This document shows, in pieces, positions 829 through 23,598 of a stretch of 64,000 bases of DNA. The stretch's first letter is position 1, and every line of letters starts with the position of its first letter. A program made the translations under genes and the position numbers. The stretch lies in NCBI GenBank assembly GCA_021432635.1, contig MU270034.1, positions 839,966 through 903,965 of the forward strand, read 5' to 3'. The DNA comes from Thozetella sp. PMI_491. Its lineage: Eukaryota > Ascomycota > Sordariomycetes > Chaetosphaeriales > Chaetosphaeriaceae. The notes under the pieces are model-generated. The model saw nothing but the letters and a program-made list of their open reading frames with translations. It made no database searches and was not told the origin of the DNA.

Positions 829-3800
829 ATGATTCCACCAAACGGCGATGACCGCGGGGCGATAGGGGGAGCCGTTGGGAGCCTGAAGATGCTAGGTTTC
901 CAACAGGCGTCCAATGAAAGCTTTGGGTCCTTCCCGAAGACTAGCGGTATCGTCACAATCGACGAAGTATCCCCCCTCCAGAGCCCAGGACCTACCAGCT
1001 ATGTCGATAGCTCGGCTCCAGCAAACGAAGCTCAGCTCGAGCCTAGCAGGTTCCCACTGATGGACTTCACCCAAGAGAGCCTCCAAGCTCTAGTTAGTGA
1101 ATTCCTTGCCAGACACGATGGCCTTACCGAAGGCGACATCGAGGACATCTATCCTTGCTCCCCCGTGCAAGAAGCTGTTCTCGCGAGCCAGCACCAGGGC
1201 AGGAGCGACTATGTGATTCGCGGAACCCTCGAAGTCATGTCGCTGGGAGACGGCCCTGTCCAACTGGGTCGACTCGAAGACGCGTGGAAGAGCGTCGTGA
1301 GGCAGTCTCCTATCTTGCGTACTGTCTTCCTCGAAGATACGACTGGGAGGGGTCTATTCTGCCAAGTAGTCGTCAGAAGCATCGCTGCAAGTATCGACAA
1401 GGTCCAGTGCAGTTCGCTGAACTCTTTCCTCGACAGAGTTGGCTGGACCAAGGACAGCTTCTCTCCACACTGCCTCACGTTTTGGGAAGCGCCTGCAGGC
1501 AAGACCTACCTCAAGCTTGAGCTTAACCACGCCATATCCGACGGTGTGGCGACGCTGGTTATAGTGCATGAGCTCATGCGCTTGTACGATGACCCGTCTC
1601 TGCGACTCACCGGCCCGTCGTATCGAGATTTCATGACGCACCTCCGGGATGTCCCGTATGAGGAGCATCTAGACTATTGGAGAGACTTTCTCTCCGGCGC
1701 GGAACTGTCGAATTTCACGCGGCTGAGTGACCCCACTCCATCCGGGTCCGAGCCCAAGATAGGCCGCCGCGAGATGAAGCTAGACAGAAACCGGATCCGC
1801 GCGGTGGGGGGTGACAAGGGAGTAACGCTCACGATGTTCTTCCAGGCAGTCTGGGCTGTGATTCTTCGCAGCTACCTTCACAGCAACGATGTGCTCTTTG
1901 GCTTCGTCTCATCAGGGCGACGATGTGTCCCGCTCAAAGCCGTCGGTACGGCCCTGGGCCCGTACATCGCCCAGATGGTGGCCAGGGCCCAGATCCAGAA
2001 CTCTGACACTTTGGTCGAGCTAGCGAAGAAGCTGCATCACAGCACCACTGAAGCCCTGTCCCATGAACAGTGCTCCTTAGCCCGAATACAACGCGAGCTT
2101 CGGTTTAACGGAAGCATGTTTAATACCATGGTGGATGTTCAAAGGCATCCGCCGCTCCACAAGACGGGAAAAGCCATCTATATGGCAATTGCCGATGTCT
2201 ACAGTCCCACCGAGTACGATATTGTGTTGAACGTGGAGGACAGAGGCACGGAGCTTGCTGCAAAGATTAACTATTCGACGGACTTCTTTACTGCTGCGGA
2301 CGCAGAAGTCTTAGAGAGTGTCTTCCTCTCCACGGTAGAGCAGTTTCTCCGCGACCCGGAGCAGAGGGTTATGGATCTCGACTTGGCTCCCCGCCATCAC
2401 CAGGATCGAATCATGTCATGGAATAGCACTCTTCCTGAACCTGTCGATGAATGCATTCCTAATCTTATTGACATCGAGGCTGCCCGCTTCCCGGAAGCAC
2501 CCGCTATCCGCTCGCTGGATATGGACATGACATTCCAAGAGTTGGCGGACGCGACCAATCGCTTGGCCCGCCACTTGGTCTGGCTGGGGGTCAGTCCCGG
2601 CGATATGATCCCGTTCTGCATGGAAAAGTCGCCCTGGGCTATCATAGCCATGTTGGCAATTATGAAAGCCGGCGCAGCGTTTGTGCCGCTTGACCCGGCG
2701 AACCCACCGAGCCGCAGCGCTGGTATCGTTGCGGACACCAATGCCAGCATCATTCTCACCTCTCCCACAATTCAGCCGGCAGTCACGGCCTTCAGTGAAC
2801 AGGCAATTATCGTGGTTGTCGATGATTCCATACTTGAGACTTCTCAGAGCAACAGCGAGTTGCCTTCTCTAAGGCCCGACTACGTGGCTTACGTGCTCTT
2901 CACCTCGGGCTCTACAGGCAAGCCGAAGGGAGTTGTTGTGCCCCACCGATCCATCTGCTCGAGCATGCGCGGCCATGGCCCGGGCATGGGGACGGTCCGA
3001 GGGGCACGCGTATTGCAGTTTGCTGCCTTCACATTCGACGCCATGGTCTACGAGGTTTTCACGGTGCTCGCGACCGGCGGCTGCGTTTGTGTTCCCTCTG
3101 ATCAGGACCGACTGGACGACACAGTTTCAGCAATCAACCAGTTGGACGTAAACCTGCTCATGTTAACGCCCACCTTCCTCAGGACCATTGATCCTTCCTC
3201 CGTCCCGGGCGTGGAGACCGTCATCCTTATCGGCGAGGCGGCGGGCAAAGATGTGGTTGATGCGTGGTGCGACAGAGTGAAACTTTACAACGGATATGGA
3301 CCGACTGAGACCTGCGTGGTCTGCGTTGCTAGAGAGTTCTCCAGAGAGCTTGGGATGACGCACGATATCATCGGCAAAGCGGTCGGCTGTCGATCGTGGG
3401 TGGTTGACCCTGAAGACCACAACAAGCTCGCGCCCCTCGGCGCCGTCGGTGAGCTACTAATTGAGGGCCCTGGTGTCTCGAAGGGATATCTCAATGATGC
3501 GGAAAAGACGGCCGCATCATTCATCGAGCCTCCCAGCTGGCTCGCAGGACTGGGTCTGGGGAGCCCGGACGCCCACGCAGCCTTTTACAAGACCGGTGAC
3601 GTCGTCCGGCAACTCTACGATGGATCATTGAAGTTCTGCGGTAGGGTTGACGACCAGGTCAAGGTGAACGGCCAACGCCTTGAGCTTGGTGAGGTCGAGA
3701 CTCATCTCACCGCCAGCGGGCTGGTGCTTCAATCCCTAGCGTACGTGCCGAAGAGCGGCCCGGTGTCCGGGCGCCTGGTGGCGCTCATTTCCCTGCGCAA

Positions 3801-6800
3801 GACAACAGGAATTGCACCTCAACCAAAGGCCAGCAAGGATACCCTACAACTGCCCTCTGAAGGGCTCCGCGATGAGGTGGCGCAAGAGATTGCCGTCCTC
3901 TCCGAGAGCATACAGTCCTCGCTGCCGGCGTACATGGTGCCTTCAATATGGATACCGGTATTGAGCATGCCAATGCAGCAGTCGGGAAAGCTGGACCGCA
4001 AGACGATCTGTTCCGCAGTTCTGAATATGGATGATGCCACCTTCCAAAAGATCTCGAGCTTCCAGAGCATTGGGGTCGACCAGGAGCTGGATCAAGCATT
4101 CGCGGGGAAGCTGGTAGAGTCACGACTTCGGGACATCTGGAGTGAGGTGCTGAACACACCAAAGAGCAATATAGGTCTGCATAGGCCTTTTTTGGCCCTT
4201 GGGGGCGACTCGATCTCGGCCATGAGGGTTGTTTCGCGAGCTAGGACAGAGGGCATACGGTTAGGCGTAGCCGACATTCTACGCCATTCCACCATCGCCG
4301 AAATATCCCGGCGTGCAGTCCAGATTATTGCTCTTCCAGGAATCCGGCCTCTCGAGCAGGAAGAGCCTCTCCAGATCCCTTTCTCGTTGTCCCCGATACA
4401 GGCCGCACACTTCAACGCCTGCCCGGACGGAGAGAATCGCTTCAGCCAGAGCATCATGCTGCAGATGAAGAATCCGGCCGAGGTCTCCACATTGCGCCGC
4501 GCAATCGATGCAATTGTCGACCATCATCCAATGCTCAGGGCTCGCTTCTCGAGAAACGATGACCATGTCTGGACCCAGTCTATATCTCAGGAGAAGAATT
4601 GGAGATTTGTCGAAACTTCTCTTGATTCAGAATCCATAGCGTCAGCACAACCACTCCTTGAGAAGAGCCAAAACTCTCTGGACTTCGCCAACAGACGCAC
4701 TCTCTCGGTGGATGTGATCAACCTACCTCTCGGCAGACAGTTCATCTATATTGTCATCCACCATCTCGTCGTAGACCTAGTCTCTTGGCGCATCATCTTC
4801 GAGGATCTCGAAGATATACTAAAACTCGGAAAGATCCAGCATGACAAGTCCCTCACTTTCCGTCAATGGAGGCAGCTTCAGCAGGAATACGCTAGCAGAC
4901 TGTCCTTAGACAAAGTCATCCAGCGAGATCCCGTGCCCGCAGATCTGGGATACTGGGACATCGATTCCTCAGGAACGTACGGCGACGTAGCTTCCGTTTC
5001 CTTCAAACTTGACGAGAAGACCACGAGCCTGCTGCTAGGGGCGGCGAACGAATCGCTCCGTACTCAGCCCGTAGAGCTCTTCATGGCTGCCGTTCTATAC
5101 TCCTTCGCGAACGTCTTTACCGACCGGGCCATTCCCTCTCTGTTTACAGAGAGCCACGGACGACACCCCTTGGCAGAAGAGTGTGATATCGAGCGAACGA
5201 TCGGCTGGTTTACCACCATCTCCCCCATTACCATCGATACTACAGAAGGTAAAGATCTGGCGGATTTGATTCGGCTTGTGAAGGACGCTCGCCGAACCGT
5301 CCCCAATGAAGGGTTGGACTACTTCACATCACGCTGGTTGACTCCTGGTGGAAAGTCAGCATTTGCGCCTCACGACACTCCGGAGATCATCTTCAACTAC
5401 CAGGGTCTTTATCAGCAACTAGAGCGTTCGGACTCCCTTCTTAGGCGTGTCCCCCAGACCGACATCCAACTGCCCCCTGATGTTGCGGGCTCATACCCCC
5501 GCATGTCGCTTTTCGACATTTTATCAAGTATCGAGGACGGTCAATTTTTGTGCTCTTTCACTTGGCCTCGGGGGATTTCACGTCTGGAATCGATTAATCG
5601 CTGGGTTGATGAGTGCAAACAGGCATTGGTTCGAATCGCTAACAGCCCGCTGCCATCCCTTGCAACGCTGAGCGAATATCCCCTCATCCCTCATGGATAT
5701 GCACCCCTGGACAGCTTTGTGGGCAAATTCCTTGAGCAGTGGAAGTTGAATAGCCTTGAGGAGATCGAGACTATTCTTCCTTGCTCCCCTATTCAAGAAG
5801 GTATTATTGCAAGTCAAGTTAAGGATTCTAACCTAGGTCTGTACGATTTCGAATCGGTGTGGAAGGTAAGTTCCGAGACCGGAACACCGGTTAATCTGGA
5901 CCAGTTTGAGTCTGCCCTCAGAGAGGTGGTCGGCCGGCATCAGATATTGCGCACTGTATTCTGCGAGTCCGAGTTTGCGCGGATGCCCTTCGTGCAAGTT
6001 GTTCTTCGGGATGCGGAGTCGATATGCCGCACCGTCTTTCGAGTTGCATGCAACTCGGTCAACGACATCGACACAGCAGTGACTCACCCTGGGCTCCTGG
6101 TTCCTGGACAGTTCCCTTACAGCTTTACCATATACGAGACGGCCCAGGGTGTCTATTGCAAGTCTAATATGAACCATGCTCTAGTTGACGGCGCGTCGAT
6201 GGCTGTCTTGCTCCGCGACATCTACCTCGCCTATGACCGCCTCGAGCTCCCTCCGGCACCATTGTACGGAGACTTCATCGCCTATCTGCAGAATCGTGAC
6301 GATGAAGAGTCTTACGCCTTCTGGAAATCTATGCTAGAAGATGTTGACCCCTGCCATTTCCCAAGCTTAAACAAGACACAGAGAGCGGAGTTTCGGTCGG
6401 TCGACGTTCCCGTTGCTGACGGGGTTAGGTTGCGCGAGTTCTGCCGGAGCCAGAATGTAACAATGGCGACTCTCATGAGTACCGTATGGTCTCTTGTCCT
6501 TCAGTCGTACCTCGGCAAGGACACTAGCACTGTGTGCTTCGGGTTTCTCGCAGCGGGGAGAGACGTCCCCGTAGCCGGTGTGCAGGACATCATGGGGCCG
6601 CTCTTCGCCATGCTCGTTCAAATGGTCTCCCTTGATCTGTCGACAGCGGTCACGGACCTCCTGGGCCAGGTCCAAAATAAAATCGCGGAGAGTCTGTCCC
6701 ACCAGCATTGTTCACTGAGCCGCATCCAAAACAGCATCGGCCTCAACGGCACCAAACTGTTCAATACTGTGCTCAACCTGCAGCGACGCGATCGTCTCCA

Positions 6801-9800
6801 GAACCGGCCATCCATCAAGATCGAGTCCGAAGCGGTCTACGATCCAAGTGAGGTTTGTACTACCGTTGTCTCGAGACGCAACATTTTGCCCTTCGCAGGG
6901 TGCTGATAATCGTGTGTGCCAGTTTGACATCAGCTTCAACATTGTCGATGCGGATGACGGGGTCTCGGCAAATCTGCAGTTTTGGACCTCCTGCCTGTCC
7001 GAAGAGCATGCCCTCAACGTCAGCAGGGCGATAGACCAGGCTATTCGGGCGGTTCTCGAAAACCCAGCGAAGTCGGTTGGCAGCCTCAGCCTTTTCCACG
7101 AGCATCACGCAACCCAGCTGCGCCAGTGGAACTCTTCAGTTCCAGCATCAATAATCTCTTGTGTCCACCGTATGGTGGAAGAGCAGGTCGACGACCAGCC
7201 AGGCGCTCTTGCTGTCTGTACGACGGCAGCGGGGGGCAACACCCGCTTAACTTATCGAGAGCTTGATGATCTGGCCGCCAAACTAGCCTCTCATCTTGCT
7301 TCGCTTGGGGTTGGTCCAGGGACTTTTGTTCCCTTCTGCCACGAAAAGTCACCTTGGACCATCGTCGTCATGTACGCCATCCTCAAAGCTGGGGGGGCCT
7401 GTGTTGCTCTCGACCCATCGCACCCGCCCCGAAGACTCCAGGAGATCATCAATATGACCGAGGCAAAAGTCGTTGTGAGCCAGAAGAAGCATGCAGAAAA
7501 GTTCGATGGTCTCGCAAAAGTCGTCGAGATTGCCCCAGGGACCTGGGATAGTCTACCTCCGCTTCCCTTCAGAGGCTCTGCGACACCCCGTGACGCTGCG
7601 TTCGTCACATTCACTTCAGGTAGCACTGGCGTGCCTAAGGGCATCGTTCTGGAGCATGCTTCTCTCTGTACCAGCATCCGTCATCACGGCTCTGTGGAGT
7701 TGGTGCAAAAATCCACCAGGGCATTGCAGTTCGGAGCCTACACCTTCGATGTAAGCGTCGAGGAGATCTTTACCACTCTGTCATTCGGCGGCTGTGTCTG
7801 CGTACCATCGGAGCATGAGCGACTCAACGACCTGTCCGCCGCTATCAAGGAGATGGAAGTGAATTGGGCCCATCTCACTCCAACGGTAGCCGGCCTCTTG
7901 AATCCCGTCGAATTGTCCTGCCTCGAGACAATAGTGTTGGGCGGCGAGGCCATACCGTACAACACGATTGCACAGTGGCTAGGACATACTCGGGTGATTG
8001 CTACCTACGGTCCTGCCGAGTGCTCCATCACATGCTCGGGCGTCGAGGTGCATGAGCCTGACGGCGGGCTTATGGGCCTCCCCGCGGGAGCCAATCTTTG
8101 GATTGTAGCTCCTCAGGACCACAACAAGCTGGTCCCCATTGGATCTCCCGGAGAAATCCTCATTGAGGGTCCTCTGCTCGCAAGAGGGTACATGGATGAG
8201 AAACAGACCGAGGCGGCTTTTATTTATGACCCAGCATGGGCCAAGGACTTCCCGATTCCAGGTGTGCCAGAAACCGGCCGACGGATGTACAAGTCCGGTG
8301 ACATGGCCCGTTTCAATCTTGATGGATCCATCAGCAGCGCTGGGCGGAAAGACATGCAAGTCAAAATCCACGGCCAGCGCGTCGATTTGCGAGAGATAGA
8401 ACACCATATTGCCAAGACTGGCGCTACCAGGCACGCTGCGGCGCTGATCCTGCAGAAGGGCCATCTCGCGGGCCGCTTGGTATTGGTTTTCTCTCCGCTC
8501 GACGCCGCAACGGAAAATGACGATGTAGGCGCGGAGCTCGACCTTGGACCACTAATTTTGCAGCGTAATGACGTATCCTTCCGCCATACCTCCGAGCTGC
8601 GAAGCCTCCTAGAGGAGCGTGTCCCAGGTTACATGCTGCCCAGGGCCTGGATATGCGTCAACGCTCTCCCCGTGACAGCGAATGGCAAACTCGACCGGAA
8701 GCAAACGCAGAGGTGGCTCGAAACGCTCAGCGACGAGACCTATGAGAAAATTATGGCGGCAGAGAGCACGGGCTCATCAGCAGCTGAGCCGGATAACCCT
8801 GTCGAGAAAGAGCTACGTAAGGCATGGAGCCGAGTGCTGGGAGTTCCTGAGAAACAGATTGGAACCAACCAGAGCTTTTTCAGTCTCGCTGGCGATTCTA
8901 TCTCGGCTATCCAGGTGTCTTCCATCCTACGGAATGCAGGCATCCAAATCTCTGTCCAGGATATCCTCCAGTTCCGCTCGATTCAAGAGATTGCGAAACA
9001 TACCAGCATGGTGCACAAATCTTTGACCAATGCAGTGTGGGAGGATTCGATTGACTCAAGTTTTCCTCTGTCACCGATCCAACGCATGCATTTTAACGCG
9101 ATGCCTGCTGGCCAGAACCATTACAATCAAAGCTTCCTCCTCCGATTCAAGAGATCGGTGGAAGCCAGCGCCGTACACAGGGCACTAGAGGCCATAGTTA
9201 AGCGGCACTCCATGCTTCGGACCCGGTTTCACTGCGACAATGATGGCGGCCAGTGGTCACAGACAGTCACTGACAATGTTTCTTCTCTGCATTTCACCCA
9301 GGCAACAGACGCATCCACCCTCGAGGACGGCAAGACTTTCTTTAACAAACTCGAGACAAACTTGGACATTCGCGACGGACCAGTGCTGGCCGCCGGATTC
9401 TTGTGCTCGAGTGACGGCGCGCAGCATTTATTCCTTGTCGCCCACCACCTTGTGGTCGACATCGTCTCGTGGAGAGTAATCATCGAGGACTTACAGGACA
9501 TCCTGCAGTCGAGAACGCCATCTCCAAGCACAATGCCATTCCAGGCCTGGGTACACTCTCAGATTGCGTATGCTCAAAACGAGAGTACCCGAGGATCCCT
9601 TTCACCGGCAAAGGTACTCCTATTCGGAGCGCCCCCCGCTGACTTCGAGTTCTGGGGCGTCCGGGATGTGGGAACTCACAATGACACGATATTTTCTTCT
9701 TTCGATCTTGGAAAAGACCATACTGCAAGACTGGTAGAGCACAGTAGTCAACATCTGGGCTCAGAACTGGTGGACATATTGCTTGCTGCTGTATTCCAGT

Positions 9801-12800
9801 CTTTCCGACATGTGTTTGCGGACCGCCGCCTCCCTTCAATCTTCAACGAGGGGCATGGCAGGGAGCCATTTAGCGAATCTGTCGACATCTCCAGGACCGT
9901 CGGTTGGTTTACAACAATGTATCCAATCGCAATTGAAAACAATGCTAGCGCTCTTCCTAGCTTCCCAGAGACACTTCGCGCCGTCAGAGACGCTCGACGA
10001 TTTCTTCCAGGGAAGGGGTGGCCATACTTCACAGCGCGATACCTCACGGCCGATGGGGCCAAGCAGTTTGCAGACCATGAAAAGATGGAGATTCTGTTCA
10101 ACTACCTAGGACAAACGCTGAGGTCCGAGAACGATGATGCCATATTCGAGCAAGCGGCAAACCCAGCTGATGTGTGGGACGTGAGCCGGTCCTCCGCGCG
10201 CGCAGCGTTGTTTGACATCGTCGCATCGCTCGAGAACGGGCAGCTCAAGTTCCACTATGCCTATTCTTCCAAGCTCCTCGGCCAAGATCGTATTCAGCGA
10301 TGGGTTCGAGAGTGCGAGTCCTGCCTTACTTCTGTGCCAGATCTGTTCAAGACGCACGCCACGGTACTACCTGCGTTCGGCGACTTCCCGCTTCTCCGAG
10401 GGCTCGTCGACTACAGCGGCCTAGAAACCATCACGAGAAATTCTCTCTCTGAACTCAAAGAGAACATCAGCCAGATTGACGAAATTGATGACATCTATCC
10501 ATGCTCGCCGATGCAGGAGGGTATTTTGGCTAGCCGGGCAAGACAACAAGGCTTGTACGATACCCAGGAGACCTGGAAGGTTACCCCTCGCGTCAAATCG
10601 AGCCCCGTCGATCTGCATCGACTTCAGAAAGCAGTATGCATGGTGATCAGTCGACACCCATTACTCAGGACCTATTTCGTCGAGGGTACAGCACTGCTAC
10701 CATACGTGCAGGTGGTGCTGAAGAAAGTGCCGAACCCTGTTGACATTGTCGCTTGCAAGGACCTGGCGGAGCTGCTAGCCCTTTCGTCCTACAGCAAAGA
10801 CGTTGCGGAAAAGATGTTCACCTACCGCTTCACCATAGCGGAGACTCCAAAAGGGGAAGTATTCTGCAAGTTAGAGATGAATCACGCTCTCATCGACGGT
10901 ATCTCGATGAAAATCCTGGTGCGGGACATTGTGCTTGCTTACGATAGTCCGGACACCCCTACTGCCGGGCCACTGTATAGCGAGTTCATCAGGTACCTCC
11001 AGCAGAAGCAGCCAGAGGAAACCGCCATTGCATACTGGGCTAATCTCTTGGGCGACGTCGATCCATGCTTATTCCCTTCACTCGCAGTCGACGCACCCGA
11101 AGCGCCAAAGGTTTTCAACGCGCGGGACCTCTTCTTATCCAGCGCGCACGTCAAGCGCGTGCATGAGTTTTGCCAAAACAACAGTACGACGGTTGCTAAT
11201 TTCATGTCGGCCGTTTGGGCTCTGGTTCTCCAGGCATACACGGGCTCCAGCACCGTATGCTTCGGGTATCTCTCGTCTGGGCGAGACGCCCCAGTTACCG
11301 ATGCGGACGCGATCGTCGGGCCACTTATTAACATGATGATTCGGAAGGTAGACCTAGACGGCCAGCTTCCCGTACCAGAGCTGATTGAGACCATGCACAC
11401 GAACTTTCTACAAGGCTTCTCCCATCAGCACTGCTCGCTTGCCAAAGTTCACCATGTTCTGGATCGGGAGCGGCGCCGTGGGCAGCTGTTTAATACGGTC
11501 GTGAATGTACAAAGACTTGCCAGTCCAGGCAGCGACCAGTCAGCTATCGAATTCGAAGTGGTCCACGGGCACGATCCCAGCGAGGTAGGCAACTCTAGTC
11601 TTCTTTCCTACGCGCATGCGCGCATGGAAGGGATCGTGGGGCAGTGGCGGAAAGTAAAAAGAGGACATGCTAATTTCATTCTAACAGTATGATATTACCT
11701 TCAACGTGGTGGACTCAGATCGAGAAATCTTCTTCAGTCTGCAGTACTGGACATCCTGCCTGTCCGATGAGCACGCCGAACTCCTCCGCAGTACTCTGCT
11801 TCGGGCTGTGGAGAGCCTGATCGACAACGCCGCCGGTACACTGGCGAGTATTGACTTATTTAGCGACCATCACAAGGCTAAGGTGCTAGAATGGAACTCT
11901 AATGTGCCTCAGACTGTGGCGTCATGCATCCAGGAGTTGGTCGAGCGTCGGGTCCAGTCCCAGCCCAACGCCCAGGCCGTTAGCTCGTCTTCAACAGTTC
12001 TCACGTACAAAGAACTAGACGACCTCGCTTCCAAGCTAGCAGGGCATCTCGCTCTCCTGGGTGTCGGACCGGAGACTATGGTGCCGTTCTATTTCGAAAA
12101 GTCTGCGTGGGGCGTCGTCACCACGTACGCGATATTGAAGGCCGGGGGTGCTTGTGTCGCCCTCTCGCCTGAGTATCCACGGAACCGCGTGGCAAGCATC
12201 ATCGAGTCGACCCGCGCTACAATTGCCGTGGCTGATGCTACACTTGCGCCGCGCCTCGCCGACCTTGTCGACAAAGTTGTCGTCATCGATGCATCGAAGG
12301 GCGGGCTAGCGTCAATGAAGGAGCAACTGGAGGACCTACCCATCTCTCAGCCGGTCCGAGCCAGCCCGGAAAATCCTTGCTTCATCACCTTCACATCGGG
12401 AAGCACAGGCACTCCTAAAGGCATCGTGATAGAGCATGCGTCGCTATGCACCAGCATCCACCATCACGGTACAGTGGAGCTCCTGGCCGCGACAAGCCGG
12501 GTCCTGCAGTTTGCGTCGTACATATTCGACGTCAGTGTTGAAGAAATGTTCACGACACTTTCCTTTGGGGGCTGCGTATGTGTTCCGACGGAGCAGGAGC
12601 GGATGAATGACCTCGCAACCTTTATACAGTCGCAGAACATCGACTGGGCGCACTTAACCCCTACAGTTGCGAGCCTTCTCGACCCTGAAATGGTTCCAGG
12701 CCTGAAAACACTGGTACTGGGTGGAGAGCTGATTCCAAAGAATATCGTGGAGAAATGGGTAAACCGCACGCAACTAATCGCTACTTACGGTCCCGCCGAG

Positions 12801-15800
12801 TGCTCTATCACCTGCACTGGAGCGCCGATTTCACCTTCCCAAGTCAGGGGCGGCCAGATGGGTCTCCCCGCTGGAGCACTAATCTGGATTGCGGATCCAA
12901 AGGACCCTAACAAGCTGGCACCAATAGGTTGCCCGGGAGAAATCATGATCGAGGGCCCTCTCCTGGCCCGTGGATACCTGGATCCCGTTCAAACCGCAGC
13001 TGCGTTCCTGGTAGACCTTCGCTGGACTCAGGACGTTCCTGTCAATGGAGTGCCGTCTACCGGTCGGAGAGTTTACAAGGCAGGAGACATGGCACGATAC
13101 AGCTTAGACGGTTCAATCATCAGCGGGGGCCGGAAAGACACACAAGTGAAGATCCGCGGCCAGCGTGTCGACTTACGGGAGATTGAGCACCACCTTGAAG
13201 GCGAGGATGTACGGCACGCTGCAGCCCTTATCCCAAGTACGGGCTACTGGAAAGAAAAGATCATCGCTGTGTTTTCTCTGTGGGATCTCCCTGTTGGTAA
13301 GAAACCCGAAAATCTTCAGGTGATGGCTGCAAAGGAAATAGTTCCCTACATCAACAAGTTCCGGTCCGCACTGCAGGACAATGTCCCCGGCTACATGATG
13401 CCGGCCGCCTGGATCGCAGTTGAGACGCTGCCCTTGACGACAAACGGCAAGATGAACCGTCGCCAAGTTCAGGGATGGCTAGAGACTATGGATCCCGAGC
13501 TGTGCAAGACAGTTCTTTCCCTGGAGCGGCGCGGTGATGCCTCTGGGCCCAGGCGCGAGCTGAACGAGATGGAGAAGGAGCTGGTGACGATATGGGCTGC
13601 CGTTCTGGACATAGAGGAAAGCAGAATTGGGCTAGACCAGGCATTCTTTAGCCTCGGAGGTGACTCCATCTCGGCTATGCAGGTGACTTCGCGCCTGAGG
13701 GCCGCAGGCATCCGGCTACCAGTGCACGACATCCTGAGATACCGAACCATCGCAGCGCTAGCGACACGTGCCACGTACACAGAGGAGCGGCAAACGAGCG
13801 TTGCAGCTCAGACTATGACCAACAGGGTTGAGAGCATCGACACCGACTTTGGCCTGACTCCTATACAGCAGATGCACTTCCAAATCCACAAGTCGGGCCA
13901 GAACCACTATAACCAGAGCATCTTGATCAAGTTGCGGGAGAGATCTAACGCCAACGTGGTTCATGAGGCTCTATTGGCCCTCGTCGCTCGCCACCCAATG
14001 CTTCGCGCACGGTTCAGAGTCAATTCTCAGGGAGTCTGGGCTCAGCGGATAACGACCGAGACCTCAGAATCATGCCGATTCACAAGCTTTAGTGCGTCTT
14101 CTCTAGAAGAGAGCATACCAATGCTGTCGAGATCCCAAACAAGTCTGGACATTATCAATGGTCCACTCATGGCCGCCGATCTCGTGCAGACTGATGAGCA
14201 GCAATACTTGTACATCGTCATCCACCATTTGGCAATAGACCTTGTCTCTTGGGGTATCATCTTCCGCGAGATGGAGGCTCTTCTTTCCGGCAAACTGGAT
14301 TCTCCACAGCCTCTGTCGTTCCAGACATGGGCACTTGCGCAGGCGGATTACGCGCTTGAGAACCTTGCCCCCCGAGGCGTGTTGCCTTCAGGCGGATTGA
14401 TTAAGCCAGACTTTGAATACTGGAACATGACAGACACGCAGAATGCATACGGATCGAGCACTGGAGCAACGTTCTCCATCGACCGAGAATCGACTCGCCT
14501 GATCCTCGGAGATGCCAACACGGCCATGCACACGGAGCCAGTCGAGATCATACTAGCCGTTATCATCACCTCATTCCAGCGAATATTCCGAGACCGCAAC
14601 GTGCCTCCAGTCTTCTTGGAAGGACATGGCCGAGAGTCGTGGCTTGAGGACATTGACATATCGAAAACAATCGGCTGGTTCACGACCATGTACCCGATAC
14701 AAGTCAGCGGTGCAAAGACCGTTGCTGCGCCTACACATGATAACCAGCTCACCGACCTGGAGCGAATCTTGAGAGAAGTCAAGGACGTACGCCGTCGGGT
14801 GCCCGGAAATGGCTTCAATTATTTCGCGTCACGCTACCTCAATCCAGACGGTATCGAGACGTTCCAGGGCCAGGAACGAATGGAGATTCTCTTCAACTAT
14901 CTTGGTGGACAGCAAGGTACCGATCTCGGGAGTGGACTCTTCGGGAAGTCCGCGTTCAAGTTTCCCGATCTCTTCGATGTAGACCCGAGCGCTTCTAGGG
15001 CGGCACTGTTCGAGATCTCAGCCGGGGTGGAGGATGGCGAACTACGCTACAGCATTAACTACTCCTCCAACATCGGTCGGCAAGATCAGATCCGCGCCTG
15101 GATTCGCGAGTGCGAGCTTCTACTTGCCTCCGCTTGCAAAAAGCTCGCTAAGGCTCCTGTCATACCCACACTAGTCGACTATCCCTTGCTGCAGCTCGAT
15201 GACTACGAGCCTCTGGACAGCATCGTTGAGAATTGCGTCGTGCGACTCGGCCTGCCCGGAGCGGAGAACATCGAGAGCATCCACCCTTGCTCACCCATGC
15301 AGGAAGGCATCTTATTCAGTCGCTCCCGCACAGACAGCCTATATGACGTACAAGTACTGCTCCAAGTTACCAGCCGCGGTGGACAGGTGGTGGACTTGCA
15401 CCGCTTCCAGCAGGCTTGCGAGCAGCTAATTGCGCATCACCAGGCTCTGCGCACGCATTTCATCGAGGCAGCGGGCGAGCAGGAGAACCTTCGCTCGTTC
15501 TTGCAGGTTGTTGAGAAACACGTTACCAACCCCCCAATCTTGCTGTGCAAGTACGATAGCCTAGACCAGTTCAGCGCCTCATCGCCCCCTGCGACGCATG
15601 AAACCGGCAAGCTGCCCTATCGCTTCACCATCTGCGAGGTGCCCTCTCGAGATGCCAGGCCAGGAGAGATCTACTTGCGAATTGAGATTAACCACGCACT
15701 AATCGACGGCACGTCGACCGGAATCCTCGTCAGGGATCTTATGCGGTCTTATGATGGCGAGCTGCGCGGCCTGGTCGGTCCGGCTTACAGCGACTTCATT

Positions 15801-18800
15801 GCATATTTACAAGCGCAGCCGCCGAACGAAGCAATTGATTTCTGGACAGCCTACCTCTCAGGAGTAACGAAGTGCCAATTCCCTGTCCTGGTGGACGAGG
15901 TAAAGCCTGGAACGGACAAGACAGCCTCTGAAAACGCTGGCCAAACACACCCTGCAGTGGCGGGATCTCGTCTCCATGTTCTCGACCTGGATATCACAAA
16001 GGAGCAAAGTGAGCAACTCCACAGCTTCTGCAAATCATACAATACTACCCTGGCGAACTTGATGTCGGCTGTCTGGGCTATTGTCCTGCAATGTTTCGTC
16101 GGTACCAGCTCCGAAGATCCCTCCGTGTGCTTCGGGTACTTGAACTCGGGTAGAGACATCCCCATCGAGGGCGTGCACGACCTCATCGGCCCCTTGATTA
16201 CGATACTCGCGCGCAGGGCCCAGGTGTACCCGTCCATGCGAGTCATCGATTTGGTGGAGAAGATGCAGGACGACTTTGCAAGGAGCCTACCGCATCAACA
16301 CTGCTCCCTCGCCGAAATTCATCACGCACTCGGCCTGGGCGCCTCGCCCTTGTTCAACACCACCGTTAACTTGCAGAAGAAGGACCGCGGGCTGGGTGGG
16401 TTAACTCAGGGCAGTATCGTGCTGGAAGAGGTCATGGGGTACGATCCGAGCGAGGTATGTAAACCTGTTTCGTTCTGATAAACACGGGGTTCTCCTAAGC
16501 AAAACTCACGTCTTCTAACTCGATACAGTACGATATCTCACTTGGCATCCTCGATGGCGACCATGTTCAACTCTCTTTGACATACTGGGATCATTGCCTT
16601 TCTGAGTTTCATGCAAGAAGTCTATCCCGGTCAGTAAGCGCTACCCTGGCATCCATCCTCTCGGATCCGAACAGGCGCATCGCCGATATAAACCTAGTCA
16701 GTGCCCATGACCTGGCGCTGTACCATACCTGGAACGCAGATTCGGAGTACGAGGTGTCAGGCTACATCCATAACGCTATAAAGCGGCAAGTAGACCTGCA
16801 GCCTGAGGCTCCAGCGATTTGTTCGACAGAGCCCGCGGTGACAGTATCGTATCGGGATCTCGATCGCCTTTCCGACCACCTGGCAAAATCTCCCCCACTG
16901 CATGACATCGAAGCAGGGGCATTCGTACTTCTCTGCTTTGACAAATCCCCATGGACACCGCTCGTCATGCTGGCGGTTCTCAAGGCCGGTGGGGCGTGTG
17001 TGGCGGTGGACCCGTCACTCTCAGCCGACCATCTAGAGGGCATTATCGAGGATACCAAGTCCTCCGTCGTTCTCGCCACCCCTTTTCATGCTCACCTGTT
17101 TGCTACCAAGGTAGCTCATGTCATTGAGATAGACGGCGAGAAGCTCACGAGCCAGCTGCAGGCCCAGGGCGCTGAAGGACGCTACGAAAGTGCTGACGAT
17201 GGTGTGCCACTTCACCCTAAGCTTGGAGGAGTAGACCGACCAGCATTTGTTATTTTCAACTCCAGCGGCACAGAAAAGCCCGAGGGCGTCGTGGTCAATC
17301 ACAGCACCTACTGCACCAGCGTGGCCGCACACGCACCGATCCTGCGCATGCAGCGCGGCACTCGGGTGCTGCAGTTCGCCTCTTACATGGAAGATACGAG
17401 CGCGAGGGAAATTTACACCACGCTCATGGTGGGCGGGTGTGTTTGCGTTCCATCCGAGAGTCAGCTGCGGGACCAGCTTGCCGCTTCTATACAGGCCATG
17501 CACGTCAACTATTTGTCCCTCACGCCCACCGTAGCAGCAGCGCTGCAACCCACCAGTGTTCCAACAGTGCAAACGCTGGTAGTCAGCGGAGAGGTCATCA
17601 ACCGGGGTGTTCTCGCCTCTTGGGCCGACAGCGTATCCCTCATCACTACGTACGGCCCAGCCGGTACGGCGGGATGGACCACTGCGAATGTTGGAATCAA
17701 GTCGACAGCTTACCCGGCCAACCTAGGCCAAACCAAGCTTGGAAACTCCCTCTGGATAACGGACCCGCGAGACTCTAATAAACTCCTCCCCATTGGTGCG
17801 CTAGGAGAAATTGTTGTGGGTGGCCCAGCATTCGCACATCGCTACCTCAGTACAGAGCCCAAGGCCGACAGCGCCTTCGTTGAGCCTCCAGCGTGGTACA
17901 ACCTCAGCAAAAGAAGCAATGGCATCGAGTTCTTCTACAGATCTGGAGATCTTGGTCGCTATAATCCTGATGGAAGCGTGACACTCGTTGGTCGCAAGAG
18001 CGATCGCTCTGGGCAACTAGACGACCTCGAGCAGGTATGCCAACAGCTTGTCGCCCTTCCTGGTATCGAGCATGCCGCTGTCCTCCTCCCGCAGTCTGGA
18101 GTTCTTGGCCGGCGCCTAGTAGCCGTCCTCTCTCTCCGGGATGTAAGTCTCAATTTACAGCAGCCTGAGGCTCTCCGGCCCGTCGAATCCCGCTTCCACG
18201 AGCTCGCCTTCAAATCGCTAGGTCCGGTAAGATCCGAAGCAGAGCTTGTCCTACCAATGCAGAAAGTCCCTACTGAGTGGATCGTGGTGGAAAAAATACC
18301 GCTCCTGTCGTCTGGCAGACTAGACACGCCGGCGGTCCGTACCTGGCTGGAGAAGATGACCCAGGAAGAATACCAGACTGCGATTGCTGTGCTAGCCCAT
18401 GGCAATTCGATCGATACTCTCGGGGAAACGAATTTGAGCCCACTGGAAATTGAACTACGGAGTGTCTTTGCGCAGGTACTCAAGCAGGACTCAGATACGC
18501 TCAGTACATCGCGGACGTTCATCGGGCTTGGGGGTGATTCGATCTCGGCTATGCAAGTGGTATGGCACGCCCGCGCTCGAGGCATCAACATCTTTGTTCA
18601 GGATGTTATGCGGATGGGCAGCATATCCAAAATTGCAGTGAGGGCGGCAGAAGCAGGACCAATCCCGGGCAAAGGCTCTCGTCAGAAATCTAGTGGCGAT
18701 CCTTTCGCACTATTGCAAGTCCCGACTAGTCGCCTAGAGACCCTCCTTCGTGAGCTCACTCTTTCGCAACGCGGCTTGGTTGCCCACACCAAGGATATCG

Positions 18801-21800
18801 AAGACATCTTCCCCTGCTCTCCGGTACAGGAAGGTATCCTCATCAGCCAAGCCAAGAGTCCGAGTCAGTACAAGGTTCGCGCCATGTGGAAAGTCACCAC
18901 GAGCCATCCAGGAGAGACGGTCGTTGTTGACCGCCTAGTCGAGGCTTGGAATAAGGCCGCAGCTCGGCACCAGGCCCTCCGCTCGTTCTTCATCGAGGAG
19001 GGTTTCGGAAACGCCAGCTTTGCGCAGGTCGTTCTCAAGGAGGCTGCAGTCCCTGTCCTCCAGCTGGACTACGACACGCTCGAAGACTTCATGGCTGCCC
19101 AGCAAGCTGACACTTACCCAGACGGAAATCTACCGTATCAAGTTACCATCGGCAGGTTGTCCTCTGGCGATGTCTACTGTAAACTCGTCATCAGCCACGC
19201 ACTTGATGACGGGTTCTCCCGACAAGTGGTCCTCCGGGATGTAGCAGCAGCATATGACAATACCCTTTCGACAGAGAAAGCACCTGCTTATAGCGATTAT
19301 ATCGCATATATCTCCAGGCAACCTGCAGAGGCTGCATCCACGTACTGGAAGAACTACCTATCAGACGTGTCACCATGCCACTTCCCAGTGCTGAACCAGG
19401 AGGTTCAAGGCCAATCTCTCGAGCTTCCCATCGTGCGACGTGTCATCGACCAAGAGCAGACTGCCGCCCTGCAGCTTCTATGTGTCGAGCAAGAAGTCAC
19501 CATTTCGGACGTGTTCAAGGTTATCTGGGCTGTTGTGCTACGAGCCTATCTCGGCGGTGAGCCCGTCGCCTTCGGTTACTTGACTTCAGGACGTGATGCA
19601 CCGATCGATAACGTACACGGCATTGCTGGACCGCTCATCAACATGCTTGTCTATCGAACTGAAGGCAACGCGGGAGCTACATTTGCCGACCTCCTCAAGG
19701 AGGCGCACAATGATTACGCTCAAAGCCTCCCTCATCAATATGCGCCACTTAAGGAAGTTCTTCACGTAGCAGGCGCAGGACAAGACGGGCTCTTCAACAC
19801 AGTGGTCAACGTAATGTCATTAAAGTTCCAAGGAGAGGCCTGGAATAGTAAGATCGCATTCGAGCCTCGGCCTGTCTATGATCCAACTGAGGTAAGTGCG
19901 TCGAGACAACACCTTGTCACAGTATCTAACATGTTCTATAGTACTCCGTTTCCTTGGATGTAGTTGAGTCTAAATCAGAGATTGAGCTGTTCCTCGACTA
20001 CTGGCCATCCTATCTTTCTCCGGAACAGGCAGCGGGTATCATGGAAACTGTGCTGAAAGCTATTGGCTGCCTGCTAGACAATCCATCCCAGACCCTCGGT
20101 CAGCTGGACCTCTTTAGCAAGCGGGACCAATTGCAGGTATCCAGATGGGGGGCTATACCTGACTACGGAGACAGCGAATGTCTTCACCATGTCATCGAGC
20201 GTCGCGCGGCAGCTCAACCCGATGCACCAGCGGTAGCCTCGGACGATGGAGGTCTGTCCTACAAGGAGCTCAACGAATTTGCAAACGTGCTAGCACATCA
20301 CCTCGTCGATTTAGGTGCCGGTCCAGAGAAATTCATTCCTCTTTGCTTTGAGAAGTCCCCCTGGGGAGTCGTGGCAATGGTCGCCGTGCTCAAAGCCGGG
20401 GCAGCGTGCGTGGGTCTCGATCCAGCACAACCACTGGAGAGAATGGAGACAATTATCAGCGATACAAACGCCTCGCTGGTTCTGGCATCGACGGCAAACG
20501 CAGGGCGCTTGAAGAACCGTGACGTTGAGGTAGTGCTCGTCAACTCAAGCACTTTGGCCAGCCTACCAAGAAGGGCCACAGCCCCCAAGACCGCTGTTAC
20601 AGTCGACAATGCTGCCTATATTGTGTACACATCCGGAAGCACCGGTACTCCGAAGGGTGCAATTCTGGAACATCGCAATCTCTACGCGATGTCGCTGAGC
20701 CTGCCCAAGCTTGGCATGACGGCTCATTCGAGGGTCGGCCACTTTGCGTCATACGCGTTTGATGTCAGCATCGAAGAGACAATCCTCACGCTAATGCAAG
20801 GAGCCTGCAGCTGTGTGATATCCGATGAGGACCGCCTCGGGGACCTTGCCGGTGCTATGAACCGTCTCCAGGTTACCTGGTCAGAGCTGACGCCAACCGT
20901 TGTCCGCATGTTGGAGCCACGCGATTTGCCGCACCTGGAGACCCTGATTGTCGGAGGAGAGGTCTTGCCAGACGACATCATTGCCAAATGGTCCAGCCAA
21001 GTAAGCTTGGTCAACACATACGGCCCATGCGAATGTTCAATCACCTGCTCGATGACCGACGTACTGGGAACTGGTACCCGCGGAGTCAACATCGGCGGGC
21101 CACTTATGGCGAACTTTTGGATTACCGACATCCACAACTCCGAGAGGCTAGTTCCGGTCGGTGCAATTGGAGAGCTAGTCATCGAGGGGCCCCTTGTCGG
21201 CCGTGGATACCTGAACAACAAAGAAAAGACCAGGGAGTCGTTCCTTCAAAACCCAGCGTGGTCGCACGATAGTGGCCTCGGCCATCGCTTCTACAAAACC
21301 GGCGACCTGGCACGATGGAATTTGGACGGCACCGTGACATACCTGGGCCGCAAGGACAGCCAAGCCAAGATTCACGGCCAACGTATTGAGCTGACCGAGA
21401 TTGAGCATCATATTTGTGATTCCCCGCTGGCCAAGGACGCCATTGCCGTGGTACCCCGACAAGGGCCTCTCGCCCAACGGCTAGTGTCCTTGGTCGTAGT
21501 GAAGGGCGACTTTGCATCAAAGCAAGCGGAGGACGGTCTCCCGATAATCGAGAATGCGGAACAAAGATCGTGGGCGTGGGACCAGCTCGCCAACATCCGC
21601 CAGATCGTTGAAATCAAGCTTCCGCGCCACATGGTCCCAACACTTTGGATACCCGTTATCAGGCTGCCTCTACTTGCCTCTGGCAAGACCAACCGTCGGC
21701 TGATAGCCCGCTGGCTCGAGGAGATGGACCATGGAACCCATGTGCAGATGATTGGGCCATCGCAGGAGCAAGAAGCCATAGTCCCTCCGTCCACCGAGAT

Positions 21801-23598
21801 GGAGATCATTCTTCGGGACCTATGGGCTGAACTCCTTCATACCGCACCCGGGAGCATCGGCATAGACCAAAACTTCTTCGGGATAGGAGGCGACTCCGTC
21901 CTCGCCATGCGGCTCATCTCTCTTCTGCGCTCACGCGGGGTTGGCGTTACAGCTGGCGATATCTTCCAAAAGAAAACCATCGCGAAGATTGCATTGGGCT
22001 GCCGTCGCCGTCTCGTCGACCACAACAGGGCAGAGACCGCCGGTGGAGCCCTCGCGAACGACGCTGGAGCACGCAACAACTTGGGCAAGATGAGGTTCCG
22101 CGGCCCGGAGGGTATTGTGGCTGCTGGCATTGAAGACTCTTATCCATGCTCGCCCATGCAGGAGAGCATACTGGAGGCTCAAGAACAGAATAAGAATGGG
22201 TGGTATTCTCAGTGGATCTACGAGCTCGGCTCACCACACACGGGCCGTCCCGTCAACCTCAACAACGTCGCCGATGCCTGGCAGAAGACCGTTGCTCGCC
22301 ACCAGATTTTGCGCACGTTGTTCTTCCGGCCGCCGACTCTCCTCGGGGAGAAACCCGAGCGGTACCAGCAAATTGTCCTCAAATCTTTCGAGGCACCGGT
22401 GGTATACATCAACGCGGATGCCGAAGATCCGGCCACGATATTCGAGATGGCCCCAGACATCCCATCAGCCAATGTGCCTCCGCATCGTGTCATTCTCGCA
22501 TCTACTCCATCCGGCAAGACATTTGCTCAATTCCAACTCAGCCATACACTATACGACGCTGTCTCGCTCTCGGTGCTGTGGCACGACCTCCAGCTGCTCT
22601 ACACATCAGACGCTGGCACAGAGCTCCCTCGGGCGCCACCGTATCGCGCATTCATAGATTATCTCGAAGGCGCCGGCCGCTCAGAGGCTGAGTCCTTTTG
22701 GCGGGGCCGTCTCGCCCGCCTCGAGCCTTGTAACTTCCCAGTAATAGCGCCTCTGTCGAGCAGGAGCAGCAGCTCTTCGGCGTTCAAAAGTCTCGCGGTT
22801 CCATTCACCGCCGGGTCGAATGTGCTCAGGAGCTTCTGCCGAACGAAAGGAATCACGACTGGCAATCTCTTCCAGGCGGCCTGGGCTCTCGTGCTACGCC
22901 ACTTTACCGGCCGTGACGACCTCTGCTTCGGCTACATGCTCTCCGGACGCGACGCACCTATCGAAGACGCTGGCTACATGCTGGGGCCCTTCATCAACCT
23001 GATGCCATGCCGGGTTGACTTGAGTCCGACGAGGTCACTGGCTAGCGTCTTGAGCACACTTCAGGAGGGGCTAGCCGACATTCTTACGGTGAGCTTTCCC
23101 GCGTTTCTCGCTCCTTGACTGACTTGGCATCTGTCGCTCCGGGGGTCGTAATCGCTAAAAAGAACTTACCAAAAATAGAATCAGAACTGCTCTCTAGAGG
23201 ATATCACTGCCGCTATTGGCGCGGCAACACCTCTTTACAACACCTTTCTGAATATGCAGCGCGTGGCCGCGCAAGAGGCTTTACAGGAAACCGCCCTGAC
23301 AATGAAAGAGCTTGGGGGGTTTATGGCAGATGAGGTAAGCATCTTACAAATTGGAATCACACTACGGTGGTGGTCCAATGGTCGATACTGATGCTCCCTA
23401 TAGTACGCAATTTCGGTCTATGTGGTCGAACATGGAGAGGAGGTCAGTATATCTATGAACTACTGGACCCACGTCTTGTCGGAAGAGCAAGCTGCACAGG
23501 TTGCTCGCGCTGTCGACGCAGCCCTATCACTTATTTTCGAAAGATCAGGCAAAACGCTTGGGGGTTGCAGATTAAATCTAGAATTGGAGGGATTGTAG
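829..23598 (+). CDS. Five-module non-ribosomal peptide synthetase, C-(A-T-E-C)x3-A-T-C-A-T-C(terminal)
   Basis: Cytosolic multimodular enzyme that would activate amino acids as adenylates, hold them on phosphopantetheine carriers and condense them. Exons by eye: 829-6852, 6923-11584, 11688-16454, 16529-19891, 19942-23088, 23179-23334, 23404-23598; all introns are phase 0, 50-103 bp, GT-AG, total about 7437 residues. The start ATG sits in a good context (gcagccATG), about 70 residues before the first condensation domain. Carrier serines lie in LGGDS/LAGDS/IGGDS motifs near residues 1128, 2667, 4218, 5821 and 6924. Condensation motifs read NHAISDG, NHALVDG, NHALIDG, NHALIDG, SHALDDG and, terminally, SHTLYDA, the form typical of fungal cyclizing C domains. 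Three epimerization domains carry HHLVVD or HHLAID followed by SW. There is no thioesterase. The closing exons were found by matching NQNCSLEDI and YNTFLNMQR to the usual C-domain tail. The product is predicted to be a cyclic peptide; substrates are not assigned. Confidence 0.93.
1060..5680 (+). other. NRPS module 1 (C-A-T-E) including N-terminal condensation domain
   Basis: The C domain runs from about 1060 to 2390 with IYPCSPVQ at residue 107 and NHAISDG at 233-239. The A domain (2450-4040) has intact core motifs: FTSGSTGKPKG, YGPTE, YKTGD and the A10 motif SGKLDRK. The carrier LGGDS is at 4198-4212. The E domain (4370-5660) has HHLVVDLVSW near residue 1311. Residues read by eye at the GrsA pocket positions are D-A-Y-M-I-I-G-V-V, which I do not match to a substrate. 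A C domain before the first loading module has no upstream peptidyl donor in this protein; the same oddity is known in cyclosporin- and enniatin-type synthetases. Confidence 0.85.
5750..10340 (+). other. NRPS module 2 (C-A-T-E)
   Basis: C domain from ILPCSPIQ (about 5773) with NHALVDG at residue 1782, interrupted near its end by intron 6853-6922. The A domain is intact (FTSGSTGVPKG, YGPAE, YKSGD, the hinge GQRVDLRE and A10 NGKLDRK). The carrier reads LAGDS rather than LGGDS, a conservative change beside serine 2667. The E domain has HHLVVDIVSW. The pocket positions read D-V-E-H-V-G-T-I-T, the same nine residues as module 3. Confidence 0.85.
10480..15140 (+). other. NRPS module 3 (C-A-T-E)
   Basis: C domain from IYPCSPMQEG (about 10495) with NHALIDG near residue 3328 and intron 11585-11687 at the same relative place as in module 2. 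The A domain is intact (FTSGSTGTPKG, YGPAE, YKAGD, GQRVDLRE, NGKMNRR). The carrier LGGDS is near residue 4218. The E domain has HHLAIDLVSW near residue 4407. Pocket residues D-V-E-H-V-G-T-I-T equal those of module 2, so both probably use one amino acid. Confidence 0.85.
15270..18650 (+). other. NRPS module 4 (C-A-T) with degenerate adenylation domain
   Basis: C domain with NHALIDG near residue 4897 and intron 16455-16528. The A domain (about 16750-18350) keeps its fold-level similarity (LKAGGACVAVDP, YRSGDLGRY) but key motifs are altered. The phosphate loop reads FNSSGTEKPEG, losing the glycine/threonine pattern and the PKG lysine. The A5 motif reads YGPAG, with the Mg-binding glutamate gone. 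The A8 hinge GQRVDLRE is collapsed to SGQLDDLE. In A10 the catalytic NGK lysine is SGR. The carrier LGGDSISAM is intact and no epimerization domain follows. Confidence 0.85.
18780..22030 (+). other. NRPS module 5 (C-A-T)
   Basis: C domain from IFPCSPVQEG (about 18805) with SHALDDG, still an HxxxDG motif, and intron 19892-19941 at its usual late position. The A domain is intact (YTSGSTGTPKG, YGPCE, YKTGD, GQRIELTE, SGKTNRR). Pocket residues read D-V-E-E-I-G-T-I-T, two changes from modules 2 and 3. The carrier IGGDS is near residue 6924. No E domain follows, so this residue should stay L. Confidence 0.85.
22120..23598 (+). other. NRPS terminal condensation (cyclizing-type) domain
   Basis: Starts at SYPCSPMQES (about 22135) and carries SHTLYDA near residue 7139, the SHxxxDA variant seen in fungal terminal C domains that release products by macrocyclization. 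Introns 23089-23178 and 23335-23403 split the tail; the second again falls at the conserved E-to-Y junction used by the other C domains. The frame ends with TAG at 23596-23598. No carrier or thioesterase follows. Confidence 0.8.

Follow-up and report, generated by a model that had tools for sequence, protein, structure and literature searches.

The 64,000-nucleotide stretch analysed here (the window) corresponds to positions 839966-903965 of contig C20 in a 72.3-Mb, 157-contig assembly of Thozetella sp. PMI_491, and it carries a large NRPS gene on the forward strand (Table 1). Before splicing, the main coding frames of this gene form five long stop-to-stop stretches that shift from one frame to another. 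Removal of six putative GT-AG introns (70, 103, 74, 50, 90 and 69 bp) leaves a single frame of 7437 codons with zero stops, the introns and the start codon being predicted from the GT-AG borders and frame continuity. The Pfam AMP-binding, PP-binding and Condensation profiles matched in every one of the five exon frames scanned and, together with our own home-made profiles, give the domain order C1-A1-T1-E1-C2-A2-T2-E2-C3-A3-T3-E3-C4-A4*-T4-C5-A5-T5-C6 (the asterisk marks the degenerate A domain). Modules 1 to 3 of this 19-domain protein each have an E domain, which is absent from module 4. Five of the six predicted introns (starting at 6853, 11585, 16455, 19892 and 23335) occupy the same codon site near the ends of C2, C3, C4, C5 and C6, while no break was seen at that site in C1 or the E domains. 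The profile matches of some C domains of the same clade on contigs C77 and C85 also break there, and those of other clade members are unbroken. The shared site suggests that an intron-bearing C domain was spread by duplication. The terminal C6 has Ala where Gly is usual in its SHTLYDA motif (22540-22560), and it clustered apart from the terminal C domains of contigs C11 and C85 of the same genome.

Table 1. Position of the NRPS gene and of the features in and around module 4, in window coordinates.
Feature	Position	Strand	Description
NRPS gene	829-23598	+	spliced gene as predicted; six introns, 7437 codons/aa
NRPS exons (predicted)	829-6852, 6923-11584, 11688-16454, 16529-19891, 19942-23088, 23179-23334, 23404-23598	+	
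A3	11787..13559	+	intact; best candidate for charging T4
T3 and E3	13560..15125	+	E3 HHLAIDL; putative upstream D-peptidyl donor
C4, directly 5' of A4	15258..16681	+	NHALIDG; intron 16455-16528; HMM scan
A4	16625..18412	+	adenylation domain, full length, degenerate
A4 motif A3 (phosphate loop)	17249..17302	+	degenerate: VIFNSSGTEKPEGVVVNH; includes NSSGTEKPEG
A4 motif A4	17384..17410	+	YMEDTSARE; Phe lost, Asp kept
A4 motif A5	17645..17665	+	TTYGPAG; Glu lost
A4 motif A8	17990..18040	+	reads GRKSDRSGQLDDLEQ / GRKSDRSGQLDDLEQVC; hinge and QVK/R/E residues lost; 3-residue gap
A4 motif A10	18296..18331	+	IPLLSSGRLDTP, including SSGRLDT; catalytic Lys to Arg
T4 carrier	18434..18646	+	LGGDSI intact
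C5	18782..20100	+	SHALDDG; intron 19892-19941; groups with C2-C4
A5	20038..21792	+	intact; alternative candidate for charging T4
C6, terminal condensation domain	22114..23562	+	SHTLYDA; probable release domain

Upstream of the NRPS gene are found a 2OG-Fe(II) dioxygenase, an AflR-like Zn2Cys6 protein and, about 13 kb away and beside ABC transporter pieces, an extra divergent fatty acid synthase (FAS) alpha/beta pair (C20:815351-827674); the FAS-beta family occurs in three places of the genome and the FAS-alpha carrier in four. Downstream are weak major-facilitator pieces (under the curated cut-offs), two fungal-type regulators, an acyltransferase, an S15 peptidase and a short-chain dehydrogenase. 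Because the first domain of the protein is a C domain, the product could, as a guess, be an acylated peptide, and the upstream FAS pair may be the acyl supplier to the N-terminal C1. Because of the FAS pair, a cluster of the HC-toxin/apicidin type was also considered, a candidate that we set aside when none of seven class-IV aminotransferase matches proved to lie on contig C20.

The first-pass annotation had described the A domain of module 4 as lacking the phosphate-loop Lys, the A5 Glu, the A8 hinge and the A10 Lys, with the other four A domains intact, and the sequence agrees on every count (Table 1); to these losses we add that of a conserved Gly from A6 and that of the Phe from motif A4. 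The latter motif still has its Asp, for which reason A4 probably derives from an amino-acid A domain, and motifs A2 and A7 retain their conserved columns. Against a reference set of 29 A domains from this genome that look functional, over the 53 columns in which at least 90% of them have one residue, A1, A2 and A3 keep all 53 columns, A5 keeps 52 and A4 only 36, counts that are partly circular given that the 29 references were picked by eye from their motifs. The contrast with the paralogues persists at thresholds of 80, 95 and 100%, where A4 keeps 53/83, 32/45 and 23/32 columns, respectively, and the minimum leave-one-out value across the 29 references is 87.5%. An independent check is given by TIGR01733, the amino-acid adenylation model with a curated cut-off of 317.4 bits. 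With this model A4 alone fails, at 229.3 bits, and A1, A2, A3 and A5 score above the cut-off (379.8, 353.5, 346.7 and 385.7 bits, respectively). The PF00501 AMP-binding match of A4 (150 bits, gathering cut-off 29.9; profile positions 2-384 of 384) marks it as a homologue by descent and is no proof of a competent enzyme.

The losses in A4 are not evenly spread, since 11 of the 20 conserved columns in motifs A3, A8 and A10 are gone against 6 of 33 elsewhere (Fisher p=0.0076, for motif groups named after inspection and with A5 kept out of the group), so that 27/33 columns are kept outside these three motifs. The mean identity of A4 to 19 A domains from outside the window is 0.297, compared with 0.351-0.360 for the other four A domains and 0.341-0.376 among the 19 themselves, and its position in the A-domain tree is without support (0.240). 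Two other causes were considered and rejected. A frameshift or misassembly is not behind the motif loss, as the other two frames hold no canonical motif in the A3, A4, A5, A8 and A10 stretches. Repeat-induced point mutation was likewise discarded, the composition of A4 being near that of the other A domains, though with an edge value in two of three measures: its TpA/ApT ratio is the highest of the five (0.79; 0.43-0.69 in the others) and its GC3 the lowest (0.607; 0.619-0.677 in the others), and its CpA index of 1.21 falls inside the range of 1.18-1.40. From these sequence comparisons we infer that A4 is a full-length A domain that has become catalytically dead.

The neighbouring domains tell where the decay stops. 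Conserved columns are kept at 38/40 in C4 and 36/38 in C5 (columns of their clade in both cases) and at 9/10 in T4, and the mean identity to nine outside C domains is 0.312 for C4 and 0.307 for C5, next to 0.314 for C2 and 0.318 for C3. T4 has LGGDSI with its Ser and gives the lowest values of the five carriers, both in mean identity to outside homologues (0.342; 0.348-0.381 in the others, T2 having 0.348) and in Pfam score (33.8 bits; 51.6-62.8 in the others). In both C4 (NHALIDG) and C5 (SHALDDG) the second His and the DG are present and the first His is replaced by Asn or Ser, as is also the case in C2 (NHALVDG) and C3 (NHALIDG), which do not flank module 4. The carrier of module 4 and the C domain that follows, which had been called intact, do show their motifs, T4 and C5 being slightly below their paralogues. 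Strong decay therefore appears to be limited to A4, C4 being as conserved as its paralogues and T4 and C5 as conserved as theirs or slightly less so, and a mild relaxation of module 4 beyond A4 is possible. By these motifs, A4 agrees with what is classed in fungi as a degenerate A domain (dA), in that core motifs A3, A5, A8 and A10 are lost and the T and flanking C domains are intact. It had also been claimed that no stop or frameshift occurs over 22 kb and that this argues for retained function. The first part is true of the spliced frame, which is open throughout, but the gene itself is interrupted by six introns; the second is a weak argument, because selection on the downstream T4-C5-A5-T5-C6 would maintain an open frame anyway, and it shows no retained function of A4.

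We propose that A4, full length but catalytically dead and with its losses densest in the nucleotide-contacting motifs, would stand next to a carrier that is still primed and still used, and that T4 would be loaded from elsewhere in the same protein, with A3 as the first candidate and A5 as the second. The synthetase would then add five residues using four activities, and the fourth residue would be the one that A3 (or A5) activates. In our estimate, such loading from within the protein is as likely to be right as wrong. The arrangement of five carriers and four active A domains suggested in the first-pass annotation is supported, in that four A domains look competent by TIGR01733 and by their conserved columns. 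Skipping of module 4 and loading of its carrier had both been left open there. The strong decay of A4 alone favours loading over skipping, and the grouping of C5, discussed below, gives skipping some weight. We place A3 ahead of A5 as the candidate loader because an upstream A domain serves a downstream T domain in the precedents, namely SidD and the proposal made for sib1. At the nine pocket residues, which we take to be those at the PheA positions, A2 and A3 have one and the same code, DVEHVGTIT, from which A5 departs at two positions, so that the second, third and perhaps fourth residues of the product may be of one kind. Against the loading of T4 would speak the after-E type of C5, yet with no E domain between T4 and C5, and the standing of T4 as the lowest of the five T domains, with C5 slightly below C2-C4.

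The type of C5 was assessed in a tree built from 41 C and E domains, all from this genome, after exclusion of 14 of 55 rows (siderophore synthetases, C10, fragments and others); a T-domain tree was disregarded, as these domains are too short for reliability. Support is 99 for a group made up of the 13 ordinary-type C domains placed after a T domain and 100 for the group of the E domains. C5 clusters with C2-C4 (SH-aLRT 92, under the program's starred value of 95), in a wider set (support 88, also under 95) that takes in every one of the 10 C domains preceded by an E or E-like domain, together with five lacking such a predecessor, namely C1, C5 and three more. C2-C4 are located behind E domains and C5 and C6 are not; T4 is joined straight to C5, the two profile matches being separated by 45 residues with no E domain between. 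C5 thus appears to be of a type mostly found after E domains in this genome, and the stereochemical inference drawn from it is a moderate one, because just 66% of the comparable fungal C type (CT-DCL) lie behind an E domain according to the portion of a large survey that we cite (PMC10212144). Set against the E-less module 4, this type would fit a lost E domain, a D-peptide coming directly from T3-E3, or a D or achiral residue on T4, whereas T4 with an L residue would be an odd donor for C5.

The same observation bears on the possible skipping of module 4. In that case the D-peptidyl chain would go from T3, after E3, to C5 and be joined there to the residue on T5, giving a four-residue peptide. 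We consider this unlikely, though not far-fetched. The grouping of C5 with the after-E domains would suit a D-peptidyl donor at T3-E3, but it is weak evidence for skipping too, given the same proportion in the survey (PMC10212144). The number of competent-looking A domains, four, agrees with a four-residue product, T4 and C5 are slightly under their paralogues, and skipping has been described in fungal peptaibol synthetases (PMC12192607, in part). On the other hand, a skipped module would leave C4 and T4 free to decay, and no clear decay is seen in them. Skipping has further been tied to altered active-site motifs of C domains in the same source. The second His and the DG are unchanged in C4 and C5, but this argument is weak in turn, because Asn or Ser stands there for the first His, just as in C2 and C3. 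A more elaborate version, in which skipping would be programmed, appears quite unlikely to us: module 4 would have shed both its A activity and an ancestral E domain, C5 would have stayed of the D-donor type, the T3-E3 peptide would pass T4 by, and A4 would be retained only as a spacer, keeping C4, T4 and C5 in register with one another.

A different explanation is that the whole synthetase is decaying, A4 being the first part to go, and that no peptide is made. Degenerate A domains are indeed frequent in the loci examined. A census of the window and the NRPS loci of 10 contig regions gave 42 A-domain hits, of which six partial or intron-split ones were set aside, and 7 of the 36 kept look degenerate, namely A4, three on contig C77, two on contig C19 (one a fragment) and a truncated one on contig C49, which lies in the order A-T-C-dA-T-C as in SidD and NPS6. 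The rarity that the first reading had implied is thereby not supported. The C77 synthetase (C77:230600-261900) is a large NRPS, and its three degenerate A domains are full length and have carriers with GGDS; it also has two modules without an A domain by our home-made profile and one E-like domain in which the first match to the active-site pattern is QHYLPDR. On contig C19 (C19:187460-196438) an NRPS-like gene has an open frame of 2993 codons. All three carriers found in it read GGDE (Ser to Glu), its two A-domain matches are degenerate or partial, two C domains are without HHxxxDG, one C domain keeps 28/44 columns, and its E domain retains HHLVVDL. It looks like a pseudo-synthetase that has been kept open, and its broad decay, like the frequency of degenerate A domains, counts in favour of a dying gene. 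However, the C19 gene is damaged in its A, T and C domains together and the window NRPS strongly in A4 only. In the latter, the signature motifs of the other domains are kept where inspected, with small departures (LAGDS in T2, SHTLYDA in C6 and the first His of the C domains), and the predicted splice form runs through its 7437 codons without a stop. We hold the decay of the entire synthetase to be improbable.

Still more doubtful is the reading in which a stand-alone A or A-T enzyme encoded elsewhere charges T4, the dead A4 being kept because this loader needs it. The preservation of 27/33 conserved columns outside A3, A8 and A10 could be understood if A4 were a docking scaffold for a loader acting in trans, which is our own reading of it. 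There are precedents as well: in bacteria inactive A domains are complemented in trans (PMC8949500 and PMC10587159, in the parts cited), and NRPS9 is discussed as delivering the residue in connection with a truncated A domain in the fungal NRPS5 (PMC6563249, likewise). Against a trans loader, no A, C or T domain was found outside the synthetase in the window, in the 30 kb upstream or in the 20 kb downstream, and no stand-alone loader was found over the same span in open pieces of at least 30 codons, apart from two chance-level scores of 5.9 and 6.9 bits at locus L009. Genome-wide, 14 of 169 A-domain candidates were scored. Finally, that A4 still adenylates by means of non-canonical residues, or that its changes are sequencing or assembly errors, is scarcely credible, since the retained Asp of motif A4 and conserved columns of A2 and A7 are outweighed by 17 of 53 columns lost across motifs A3 to A10, by the absence of the phosphate-loop Lys, the A5 Glu and the A10 Lys together, by the lack of these motifs in any other frame and by a composition close to that of the other A domains.

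The loading of T4 from within the synthetase would matter for the prediction of products, where one residue per module is the assumption made for fungal synthetases. Five carriers, four competent-looking A domains and a preserved C4, T4 and C5 make the product a clean choice between five residues and four, and the two outcomes can be told apart partly by the stereochemical type of C5. If A3 does charge T4, inter-module loading would no longer be confined to siderophore synthetases and would extend to an epimerizing peptide line whose dead A domain is full length.

Degenerate A domains in fungi were described in a 2008 paper (PMC2644324), and modules without a functional A domain are presented as a recurring feature of fungal NRPSs in a 2023 paper (PMC10192304), both as far as the cited parts go. 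In the synthetases of the Trichoderma peptaibols and of myxochromide S, modules outnumber residues (PMC12192607, in part); altered C-domain active-site motifs are reported for skipping synthetases in the same source, and in C4 and C5 the second His and the DG are present and the first His is changed in the way that it is in C2 and C3. Among bacterial systems, the non-functional A domain of the kutzneride line is called critical for transfer by the stand-alone KtzN, and the inactive A domain of the albicidin line is served by a stand-alone A-T enzyme (PMC8949500 and PMC10587159, in part). Both share with the window NRPS a non-functional A domain in a multimodular line, the residue coming in their case from a separate enzyme, but the window NRPS has no stand-alone A or A-T gene nearby. 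In Fusarium, NRPS5 (fusaoctaxin) has a truncated first A domain and NRPS9 has been suggested to deliver the residue (PMC6563249, in part); it is also a fungal line with a defective A domain and several E domains, but its defect is in the first module and A4 is internal. The sib1 synthetase of Schizosaccharomyces pombe has a degenerate A2, whose role is proposed to be taken by A1 in cis (PMC2644324, in part), and resembles the window NRPS in having a divergent A domain without core motifs in a multimodular line, though it is a ferrichrome synthetase with another architecture. Another close comparison is with the fusarinine and coprogen synthetases SidD and NPS6. In SidD, A1 loads T1 and T2 and the A domain of module 2 is dead (PMC10192304, in part), and the degenerate module 2 of SidD and NPS6 is also covered in the cited parts of PMC2823734 and PMC5118889. 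These synthetases and the window NRPS have in common a fungal module with a dead A domain and with its T and C domains present. They differ in that the dead A domain of SidD and NPS6 is N-terminally truncated, with about 290 residues missing, while A4 is full length and point-degenerate, and in that their order is A-T-C-dA-T-C, compared with 19 domains including three E domains in the window NRPS. The bypass of a dead fungal A domain by another A domain is thus already established in SidD and NPS6 and proposed for sib1.
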